A stretch of 64,000 nt of DNA, taken from contig NZVE01000072.1 of the NCBI GenBank assembly GCA_002697345.1, positions 22,187-86,186 on the forward strand, written 5' to 3'. Both the position numbers and the translations under genes were made by a program. The stretch comes from Paracoccaceae bacterium. GTDB lineage: Bacteria; Pseudomonadota; Alphaproteobacteria; Rhodobacterales; Rhodobacteraceae. Of this stretch, positions 23,354 through 26,765 are shown one piece after another (position 1 is the stretch's first letter; the number at the start of each line of letters is the position of its first letter). The notes under the pieces were generated by a model. The model had not been told where the DNA came from. It did not search any database and was given only the letters and a program-made list of their open reading frames with translations.

Positions 23354-23839
23354 TTACTCCTTTGGAGTTTCTTCTATTGACCGTGATAGATCTTGTCGCC
23401 ATGCCATCAAACGCTTTGAAATTTCACTGTCATTAAGTGATAATATACTTGTGGCTAAAAGCGCAGCATTACTTGCTCCAGGGTTACCAATAGCCATTGT
23501 TGCCACAGGGTAGCCTTTCGGCATCTGTAATATAGAGTAGAGACTATCCAAACCCGATAGCGCTGTAGTGGGAATAGGTACACCTATAACTGGAACTTGC
23601 GTTTTTGAAGCAATCATTCCTGGAAGGTGTGCCGCGCCACCTGCTCCTGCAATAATAACGGCAATCCCCCGTTTTATTGCGGTTTTACCATATTCCCATA
23701 ATCGATCTGGAGTGCGATGAGCGGATATAATTTTTTTTTCATGTGGGATTTTTAACTCTTCTAGTATGATTGCAGACTCCTTCATTACAGACCAATCTGA
23801 TTGGCTCCCCATAATAATTCCGACTTTTAAATGTCTCAT
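23354..23839 (-). CDS. purE: N5-carboxyaminoimidazole ribonucleotide mutase
   Basis: PurE moves the carboxyl group of N5-CAIR to C4, the step after PurK. The 161-residue protein shows the class I PurE core: [24 protein letters not shown] with the conserved His, [19 protein letters not shown] and [15 protein letters not shown] chose ATG at 23839 with GAG five bases before it; a GTG two codons earlier is possible. The 203 bases upstream, between purE and sat/cysC, hold no gene I can support. I looked there for 6S RNA because of the purE neighbourhood but saw no convincing long hairpin. Confidence 0.97.
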
Positions 23840-24042
23840 AATCACTCGCTAATATATTCTTTAATCGATGCTTATAAATAGATATTTAAGTTACGCAATG
23901 ATGCCTGACTTGAGTAGGTCTTTTACGTGAGTTAATTTGTTTGCTTAATTCTTCAATTAAATAGTCAATTTAGTAAAGAGCTTATTTTACGAAAAAGATG
24001 CCTGGTTAAGGAAATAATTTTATTTAGATTAATTAGTAACTC

Positions 24043-25758
24043 TTAAGATTTCTCTTCCTTGATTAAACCTAGATTAACTAACTTATAGATTATTTTTTCG
24101 ATACAGTCTTGTACATTTACATTTTCTGTTTCTAGATGAATTTCTGGCTTTTGAGGTACTTCATAAGGATCAGAAATACCGGTAAATTCTTTAATTTTTC
24201 CTTCGCGAGCTTTTTGATAAAGCCCTTTCCTATCACGGCGTTCGCATTCTTCTAAACTTGTAGCAACATATATTTCTATGAAAGTACCCCAATTTTCCAC
24301 GTCTTGTCGTACTAACTGTCTAGTTTTAGAGTATGGAGCTATAGGAGCACAAATTGCTACCCCACCATTCTTTGTTATTTCTGACGCAACATATCCAATC
24401 CTTCGGATATTTAAATCCCGATGGTGTTTTGAAAAACCTAATTCTGAAGATAAGTTTTTTCTTACTATATCACCGTCTAAGAGAGTTACTGATCTGCTCC
24501 CTATTTCCATTAACTTAGACATTAAAACGTTAGCAATTGTTGATTTTCCGGATCCAGATAAACCTGTAAAAAATATAGTGAAACCTTGTGAGGAAAGTAA
24601 CGGCCTCGTACGACGAATTTCAGTTAAGACGCTTGGAAAGCTGAACCACTCCGGTATGTTTAAACCCTTATCCAGATGATGCTCTAACTCTGACTTTGAA
24701 ATTGTTTTTGTAGTGAGTCCATTATTCATAGCTTCTTCTACTGGTTGATATCGTGAGGTTTCTTTTACGTAGATCATTTCTTGAGCATTAATTATCTTTA
24801 TTCCCATTTCCTCTTCATAATAACGGAAAAGGTTTTGTGCTTCATACGAATTATAAGGAGGTTTATTTTTAATATCTAAACTTTCCTCTATGCTGTCTTT
24901 TTCTACGATTAGGTGGGTGCAACCATAGTTCTTATGAATTAAACCATGCCAGATGGTCTCTCTTGGCCCAGCCATTCGTGTGGCTAAGTTTAGCAGAGAT
25001 AATTGTGTGGTAGAAGGTTGATAATTAGTAATAACAGCTTTGTAGCATTTGATTTTAGTATAATGTTTAATATCTCCAGAATTTGTCATCCCGGTGATAG
25101 AATGAATTAGTAAATTTGCTCCCACCTCTTTCGTTGCCCTTAGAGTCATTTCTTGGTGCGCGCGGTGAATTATATTTTTTGGTTGAAAGGCAACAATTTT
25201 TGTCCACCCTAACTTTTTAAATTTTTCTTTTAGCTTATTTGGAGAGTGACGATTGTCACAAAAATCGTAGTGGGTAGGAGATTCTAATCCTACTATTGGT
25301 CCACCTAGATAGATGTGTTCTGCTTCATTTAATAAGTAATTTACGCCTGGATGATTTATATCCGTCGTTCCATATACTTTTTTTGCTTCAATAACCTTAT
25401 TCGGAGTCCATTTATCAGTTATTTTCATTATAGCTAATATTGTGCCTTCTTGATCTTTAAGTGCTATTTCTTCGCCAATAGCAAGCTTGAGAGAAAACTT
25501 TTTAGTAACATCTAGAGTAATTGGCATGGGCCATAGGGCACCACTCTCCAAACGCATTTCTTCTAAGACTTTACTATAATCAGTTTGTTTCATAAATCCA
25601 ATTAACGGTGAAAAACTACCATTTAGTAAAAGCTCTATGTCGCAGATCTGTCTTTTTGTTAAATCCCAACATTTTAAATCTGAAGCCAAACGTTTAAGTT
25701 CACCTAGAGGTTTTTCTGTCTGATAAAGTTCAGGTACTAGGTCTAGATTATTGTTCAT
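24043..25758 (-). CDS. Fused ATP sulfurylase / adenylylsulfate kinase with altered sulfurylase motifs
   Basis: The 571-residue protein has the layout of the bifunctional Sat/CysC enzymes of Rhodobacteraceae: PUA-like plus ATP-sulfurylase domains to about residue 385, then an APS kinase domain. The kinase looks intact: P-loop GLSGSGKST at 399-407, DGD at 428-430, GFSKHHRDLNIRRIGYVA and GISDPYE. The sulfurylase half keeps H198/H201, but the QxRN motif reads QPKN (192-195), the GRDHAGPG loop is replaced by EKDSIEES (from residue 286), and the late SGTELR-type segment reads SKSELE. Those residues bind ATP and sulfate in known ATP sulfurylases, so that activity is doubtful. If so, the enzyme may only phosphorylate APS, or the first half may have a new role. 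Base composition resembles the neighbours. Confidence 0.88.
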   Translation of the reverse strand: MNNNLDLVPELYQTEKPLGELKRLASDLKCWDLTKRQICDIELLLNGSFSPLIGFMKQTDYSKVLEEMRLESGALWPMPITLDVTKKFSLKLAIGEEIALKDQEGTILAIMKITDKWTPNKVIEAKKVYGTTDINHPGVNYLLNEAEHIYLGGPIVGLESPTHYDFCDNRHSPNKLKEKFKKLGWTKIVAFQPKNIIHRAHQEMTLRATKEVGANLLIHSITGMTNSGDIKHYTKIKCYKAVITNYQPSTTQLSLLNLATRMAGPRETIWHGLIHKNYGCTHLIVEKDSIEESLDIKNKPPYNSYEAQNLFRYYEEEMGIKIINAQEMIYVKETSRYQPVEEAMNNGLTTKTISKSELEHHLDKGLNIPEWFSFPSVLTEIRRTRPLLSSQGFTIFFTGLSGSGKSTIANVLMSKLMEIGSRSVTLLDGDIVRKNLSSELGFSKHHRDLNIRRIGYVASEITKNGGVAICAPIAPYSKTRQLVRQDVENWGTFIEIYVATSLEECERRDRKGLYQKAREGKIKEFTGISDPYEVPQKPEIHLETENVNVQDCIEKIIYKLVNLGLIKEEKS

Positions 25759-25823: not shown

Positions 25824-26765
25824 TTATTTTGCTTCTGCAAGGAAACGCTCTGCCTCTAAAGCTGCCATACAACCCATTCCCGCACTCGTAACAGCCTGTC
25901 TGTATTTATGATCAGTAAGGTCTCCAGCAGCAAATACTCCAGGTATAGAAGTTTCTGTACTATCAGGCTCGGTTATAACGTACCCACCCATATGTGTTTT
26001 TAAAACATCTTTCACTAGTTCATTTGCAGGAGAGTGACCAATAGCGACAAAAATACCTTTGCATTTGATTGTAGAAAGGACTCCTGTTTTTACATTCTTA
26101 ACTTTAATACCAGTTACTCCTAAAGGCTCTTTATCACCTAGTACTTCTACTACTTCGTTAAACCAGAGTGTTTCTATTTTTGGATTTTTAAATAACCGAT
26201 CTTGCAGGATTTTTTCACTTCTCAATTCATCACGACGATGAATTAAGGTTACTTTTGAAGCAAAATTAGTAAGAAATAGAGCCTCTTCTACGGCTGTATT
26301 TCCTCCACCAATAACAACTATCTCCTCATTTCTATAAAAGAACCCATCGCACGTTGCACAGGCAGAGACTCCAAAACCTTTATATTTTTCTTCAGAAGGC
26401 AAACCTAGCCATTTAGCTCTTGCCCCAGTAGCTAGGATAATTGAATCACAGGTGTATGTATTTCCAGAATCCCCGGTAGCAGTAAACGGGCGATCTGAAA
26501 GTTTTAAATTCGTAATTATATCTGACACGACTTCACAGCCAACTGATTTTGCATGGTTTTCCATTCTAATCATCAAATCAGGCCCTTGAACCTCGCTGTC
26601 CCCTGGCCAGTTTTCAACCTCCGTTGTTGTGGTCAACTGTCCGCCTGGCTCAATCCCTTGGATCAGGAGAGGTTCGAGCATTGCGCGGCTGGCGTATACA
26701 CCAGCTGTATATCCTGCGGGACCAGAGCCAATAATCAGCACTTTAGTATGTCTATAATTTCCCAT
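25824..26765 (-). CDS. trxB: Thioredoxin-disulfide reductase
   Basis: TrxB passes electrons from NADPH through FAD to thioredoxin in the cytoplasm. The 313-residue flavoprotein has the FAD loop IIGSGPAGYTAGVYASRA, the redox-active disulfide CATC inside SACATCDGFF, the NADPH loop VIGGGNTAVEEAL, and the C-terminal FAD contact GVFAAGDLTD. It is divergent from an lrp-type regulator, a pairing common in Rhodobacteraceae; the 172-base gap should hold both promoters. Confidence 0.97.
   Translation of the reverse strand: MGNYRHTKVLIIGSGPAGYTAGVYASRAMLEPLLIQGIEPGGQLTTTTEVENWPGDSEVQGPDLMIRMENHAKSVGCEVVSDIITNLKLSDRPFTATGDSGNTYTCDSIILATGARAKWLGLPSEEKYKGFGVSACATCDGFFYRNEEIVVIGGGNTAVEEALFLTNFASKVTLIHRRDELRSEKILQDRLFKNPKIETLWFNEVVEVLGDKEPLGVTGIKVKNVKTGVLSTIKCKGIFVAIGHSPANELVKDVLKTHMGGYVITEPDSTETSIPGVFAAGDLTDHKYRQAVTSAGMGCMAALEAERFLAEAK

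Follow-up and report, generated by a model that had tools for sequence, protein, structure and literature searches.

Can a fused Sat/CysC enzyme still make APS once its sulfurylase half has lost key residues, and if not, what use has the cell for the intact APS kinase attached to it? The question is raised by a 571-aa open reading frame on the minus strand (24043-25758) of the window, a 64,000-nucleotide stretch (G000:C12:22187-86186) of a MAG of 2.8 Mb that is 94% complete and 6.6% contaminated and comes from a genus of uncultured marine Rhodobacteraceae. The protein contains PUA_2, ATP-sulfurylase and APS_kinase domains (Pfam). It scored 850.6 bits against the NCBIfam equivalog PRK05537 (cut-off 669), so automatic annotation will label it bifunctional. 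The features of the locus, with the evidence for each in brackets, are as follows.

25824-26765, minus strand: trxB (thioredoxin reductase), upstream neighbour, kept in family relatives (ORF, synteny)
24043-25758, minus strand: Sat/CysC fusion gene, ATP-sulfurylase-like N-terminal domain plus APS kinase (ORF, domain profiles)
24595-25758, minus strand: sulfurylase-like domain, residues 1-388, with a degenerate catalytic region (profiles, alignment, invariant columns)
25174-25185, minus strand: QPKN, residues 192-195; QTRN in canonical relatives (alignment)
25072-25092, minus strand: GMTNSGD, residues 223-229, the GxxKxxD loop without K226; canonical GMTKPGD (alignment)
24880-24903, minus strand: EKDSIEES, residues 286-293; canonical GRDHAGPG; sulfate/ribose-binding loop lost (alignment)
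24682-24699, minus strand: SKSELE, residues 354-359; canonical SGTELR; PPi-binding Arg replaced by Glu (alignment)
24043-24594, minus strand: APS kinase domain, residues 389-571, intact (profiles, alignment, invariant columns)
24538-24564, minus strand: kinase P-loop GLSGSGKST, residues 399-407 (alignment)
24469-24483, minus strand: kinase LLDGD motif, residues 426-430 (alignment)
23354-23845, minus strand: purE, downstream neighbour, kept in several family relatives (ORF, synteny)

The profiles (Pfam, NCBIfam) and an AlphaFold2 model of the single chain (pLDDT 84.9, pTM 0.73) both place a sulfurylase fold N-terminal to an APS kinase. The top PDB matches of the model were 1I2D, 1M8P, 2GKS and 3CR8. 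This domain order is that of canonical Rhodobacteraceae Sat/CysC enzymes (PRK05537) and of the Aquifex enzyme, 2GKS.

Active-site residues of the two halves

Alignment with 60 canonical fusions showed that eight sulfurylase contacts were replaced: T193P, R194K, K226N, G286E, R287K, H289S, A290I and R359E. A first-pass annotation of this DNA had read QPKN at 192-195, EKDSIEES from 286 and a late SKSELE, and the alignment gave the same readings. Canonical Sat/CysC enzymes keep QTRN, GRDHAGPG and SGTELRRR, whereas none of the intact PRK05537 motifs (QXRN, GRDHAGPG, SGTELR) was found in the window protein or its congeners. The window protein retains Q192, N195, H198, H201, D229, D288 and RMAGPRE. 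Both histidines and RMAGPRE were as first described, though the flanking M260 of LAMRM is Thr.

What these residues do is known from the A. vinosum enzyme, where APS is held by Gln199, Thr200, Arg201, Asn202, Gly295, Arg296, His298 and Ala299, and PPi by Asn202, His205, His208 and Arg365 (PMC3779200). The first-pass annotation had the replaced residues contact ATP and sulfate in characterised enzymes; in this enzyme they are contacts of APS, sulfate or PPi. Only the Gln, the Asn and both His of this set are retained in the window protein. Thr200, Arg201, Gly295, Arg296, His298, Ala299 and Arg365, together with the loop Lys, are replaced in the window species and two of its congeners alike; the Thr and Arg of QTRN, which contact sulfate and the alpha-phosphate, are Pro and Lys in the window protein. 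Several replacements are conserved across the genus (PKN at 193-195, NSG at 226-228, E286 and E359). The GRDH-equivalent loop differs between its species (EKDSIEES, EKDSVEES, EQDCVGEG), and H201 is Gln in one of them, G001.

Of the columns that did not vary among 59 canonical fusions, substitutions affected 28 of 79 in the catalytic region (residues 169-388), 1 of 31 N-terminal to it (residues 1-168) and, in the kinase half, 2 of 73 (71 kept). The kinase half is intact, as the first reading had it, with GLSGSGKST, LLDGD and LGFSK (residue 440) all in place. Contacts lost in three species, next to a constrained kinase, suggest that the window protein no longer makes APS, in line with the original proposal. 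Trace sulfurylase activity is conceivable, since Q192, N195 and both HxxH histidines are kept.

Origin of the degenerate fusion and selection on it

Two congeneric species, G002 (96% identity) and G001 (85%), showed the same sulfurylase losses, and within the genus the fusion was found in these two genomes and G000 only. All other full-length Rhodobacteraceae fusions that we read were canonical. The canonical enzymes of the family are about 60% identical to the window protein and stand at the same locus with the same neighbours. The window protein scored 211 bits against the sulfurylase profile, compared with about 296-307 among approximately 150 listed matches in a draw of 248 family genomes, from which we retrieved and inspected those whose best score was clearly weak or that had two matches. 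Four candidates for degenerate family fusions (G097, G202, G152 and G174) were split or partial genes, canonical where motifs were readable, and two more (G170:C3 and G109:C13) were separate, unrelated Sat genes. These last two look like sulfation islands, the one at G109:C13 5219-7006 having Sat next to a cysC-like gene, with flagellar genes close by; both genomes also retain a canonical Sat/CysC fusion. A 1224-aa open frame in G414 was non-coding read-through upstream of Sat.

In trees of both domains the genus formed a long-stemmed, fully supported clade, which the sulfurylase tree nested within the family and apart from Thiobacillus denitrificans. The stem was 2.13 long for the sulfurylase half vs 0.55 for the kinase half. 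The gene order lrp-trxB-satCysC-purE-purK recurs in canonical relatives (complete in G170, partial in several others), which argues that this is the family's ancestral gene and that its sulfurylase domain decayed in place. A single origin of all degenerate proteins was recovered in none of 200 bootstrap trees, and at least two changes were forced.

Within the genus, the sulfurylase half has a dN/dS of approximately 0.20, the kinase half one of 0.06-0.08. Both values are well below 1, and that of the sulfurylase half indicates that it is still under purifying selection. The ratio of sulfurylase to kinase dN was 1.9-2.5 within the genus, against a median of 1.40 (5-95% range 0.85-2.33) for canonical pairs; because the sulfurylase half outpaces the kinase half in canonical pairs too, the genus ratio is only marginally raised. 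By these measures, the apparently dead sulfurylase domain is relaxed yet constrained.

Proteins of this kind are already known. In the two-domain, hexameric APS kinase of T. denitrificans (PDB 3CR8) the sulfurylase-like domain is described as inactive, with a predicted part in holding the hexamer together (Gay, Segel and Fisher 2009, cited in PMC13213808). That protein was among the best structure and sequence matches of ours and, in the outline given there, shares with it an N-terminal sulfurylase-like domain without activity and a C-terminal active APS kinase, features that the sequence predicts here. It differs in lying outside Rhodobacteraceae in both domain trees, in a far more diverged sulfurylase domain and in the residues lost (QARQ, GGEHQPDG, SGEEFQRR). 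Common descent of the two degenerate proteins is not what the trees show, as they hold separate positions in both, and transfer from the T. denitrificans lineage is ruled out by the trees and synteny together.

Entamoeba has a separate sulfurylase, a nonfunctional AS-APSK fusion and sulfotransferases, and no APS/PAPS reductase (PMC6801973). The combination of a dead sulfurylase-like domain, a live kinase, a separate working sulfurylase and PAPS for sulfotransferases is the one we infer here; the Entamoeba system differs in being eukaryotic and mitosomal (PMC13213808, PMC6801973). Its fusion lacks the substrate loop and has a shortened linker, whereas the loop of the window protein is full length but substituted. 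On the sequence evidence, then, sulfurylase loss in the genus is independent of that in T. denitrificans and in Entamoeba. The first-pass annotation had called the protein a mirror image of the fungal enzyme. The likeness holds, in that fungal ATP sulfurylase (Penicillium 1I2D) is also a fusion with one catalytically dead domain, there the kinase-like, allosteric one; the arrangement itself had been described before, in Entamoeba and, according to PMC13213808, in T. denitrificans.

Another degenerate fusion (QTSKPMHRLQ, GPKHAYPP, TDARLKKD) was seen in G482 (G482:C119:1-5956, 20-1732), a MAG of another class of the same phylum. It lies at one end of a short contig of 52.5% GC content and occurs in 1 of the 23 genomes of its genus; standing alone on such a contig, it is possibly contamination.

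Probable APS supply and PAPS use in the genus

Loss of sulfate assimilation, suggested at first reading, fits the gene content of the genus. Profile searches with PF01507 (CysH and CysD) and PF01077 (NIR_SIR, the sulfite and nitrite reductases) each returned nothing from its four genomes, all MAGs (94, 78, 97 and 74% complete), whereas all eight family controls gave matches to both. A second sulfurylase gene lies elsewhere in G000. This separate Sat is canonical (QTRN, GRDHAG, SGTRLR), which leaves the cell a means of making or consuming APS. It lies on contig C87 (G000:C87:74500-94253) in a cluster that reads tauA-tauB-tauC-tpa-xsc-pta-sat-aprM-aprB-aprA. Profile scores, in bits, exceeded their cut-offs for Xsc (922/676), AprA (954/642), AprB (190/136) and Sat (503/387); the assignments of tauABC, tpa and pta, which scored below their cut-offs, are less secure, and AprM takes its name from its place in the cluster. 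The whole taurine cluster is also present in G003, and pta-sat-aprMBA in G002, where the contig ends.

The cluster is likely to serve the oxidation of sulfite to sulfate with a gain of ATP. In the family, aprA is rare: it was found in 3 of 395 genomes, those of the window genus and G073 only. G073 has one Sat, beside aprMBA, and a Sat/CysC fusion was looked for there and not found. A 2025 survey of pelagic roseobacters reported aprAB only in the AAR cluster, whose genomes are of 2.24-2.57 Mb with a GC content of 38.3% (PMC12661815). The window has a GC content of 38.0%, and its genus is probably the AAR cluster. Sat plus aprAB was scored in that survey as sulfate reduction to sulfite (PMC12661815); the gene context in the window genus points instead to oxidation of taurine-derived sulfite. 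In both aprA-bearing Rhodobacteraceae lineages a metallophosphoesterase-like gene adjoins sat/apr (L041 on G000:C87, 17823-18584; L128, 7345-8112), the two products being 35% identical. PAP or a related nucleotide is a possible substrate.

What, then, is the kinase for? With PAPS reductase and sulfite reductase gone, PAPS would be made for sulfotransferases. Sulfotransferase domains were found in all four genus genomes and offer a plausible answer to the question of the intact kinase left by the first-pass annotation, the link being one of co-presence in genomes rather than gene neighbourhood. Orthologues of a TPR-sulfotransferase on contig C9 of G000 occur, at 93-95% identity, in G002 and, incomplete, in G001. 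The C9 protein keeps PRTGTT and RHPCDCILS, which we take to be the motifs that bind PAPS. Of the three sulfotransferases in G000, two sit on contigs that carry TonB-dependent receptors and look foreign (G000:C95 and G000:C71); these contigs probably belong to the 6.6% contamination of this MAG.

Proposed function and its alternatives

We think it probable that the window protein is a dedicated two-domain APS kinase that receives APS in trans and makes PAPS for sulfation, with the dead domain as a scaffold. It would have been derived in place from an ordinary bifunctional Rhodobacteraceae Sat/CysC. Judging from its residues, the sulfurylase domain should be unable to bind APS, sulfate or PPi productively and, by analogy with the T. 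denitrificans proposal, may survive as a folded scaffold, probably for an oligomer. The C-terminal domain is predicted to phosphorylate APS to PAPS. Its APS would come from the separate canonical Sat (sulfate and ATP), from AprBA (sulfite and AMP), or from both, and the sulfite for AprBA would be released from taurine.

The same gene with the same neighbours in two other genus MAGs, and a window GC content that matches theirs, leave assembly or contamination a negligible chance as the source of the gene, for all that the MAG is contaminated and contains foreign-looking contigs. Frameshift or sequencing error is likewise ruled out, as the same gene and losses recur in three MAGs; the in-frame stops flagged in L005 and L022 lie at the match end and are those genes' own stop codons. 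An odd bifunctional PAPS synthase, still active with Lys in place of the Arg of QXRN and with its sulfate loop rebuilt, would account for the retained residues and RMAGPRE. It would also suit the predicted fold, which is intact and has both active and inactive fusions among its best PDB matches. We regard such activity as very unlikely, given the eight replaced contacts, the acidic or non-equivalent residues that G286E, A290I and R359E put into the anion site, a GRDH-equivalent loop that varies among species and the missing H201 of G001.

If activity is gone, the domain might be a neutral relic heading for loss, with no scaffold role and only the kinase mattering. The clustering of substitutions in the catalytic region would agree with this, as would a sulfurylase dN/dS above the roughly 0.05-0.12 of the listed canonical pairs. 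The value of about 0.2 is nevertheless far below 1, three species share a full-length frame with the domain 79-95% identical, residues 1-168 retain 30 of 31 invariant positions, and dead domains have also been kept in the proteins of T. denitrificans and Entamoeba; neutral decay is thus improbable. We are more doubtful still of a pocket turned to regulation or docking, such as the sensing of APS/PAPS or the binding of Sat or AprBA, mirroring the fungal kinase-like allosteric domain. Replacements conserved in the genus (PKN, NSG, E286, E359) and the interdomain regulation reported for Entamoeba APSK (PMC13213808) speak for it, but the shared replacements may reflect common descent only.

The dedicated APS kinase, our preferred reading, is of a known kind; what is new is an independently evolved and unusually interpretable case, caught at an early stage of decay, with about 60% identity to canonical enzymes, the same locus and a clear metabolic setting. 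It suggests a rule: where there is another source of APS and no sulfate reduction, the fusion loses its Sat half and keeps the kinase. It is also a warning, since profile-based annotation counts the window gene as sat or a bifunctional PAPS synthase.

A more specific route is possible, although we would not bet on it: PAPS might be made without forward ATP sulfurylase, sulfite from taurine and other sulfonates passing through AprBA to APS and on to the fused kinase, with the dead domain as a docking or regulatory module. If true, this would tie sulfation to organosulfonate breakdown, and would also explain cysC with aprA and without sat in SAR11. SAR11 strains have aprA, cysC and cysQ without sat or cysHIJ (PMC5069961, Table 3). 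Like the window genus, these are marine alphaproteobacteria with APS-forming AprBA, an APS kinase gene and no sulfate reduction; they differ in lacking both a sulfurylase and any fused relic (PMC5069961). By this analogy, AprBA feeding an APS kinase may be a wider marine theme. The SAR11 source is inconsistent on one point, as its Table 3 shows cysC in several strains and its text counts cysDNCHIJ as absent (PMC5069961).
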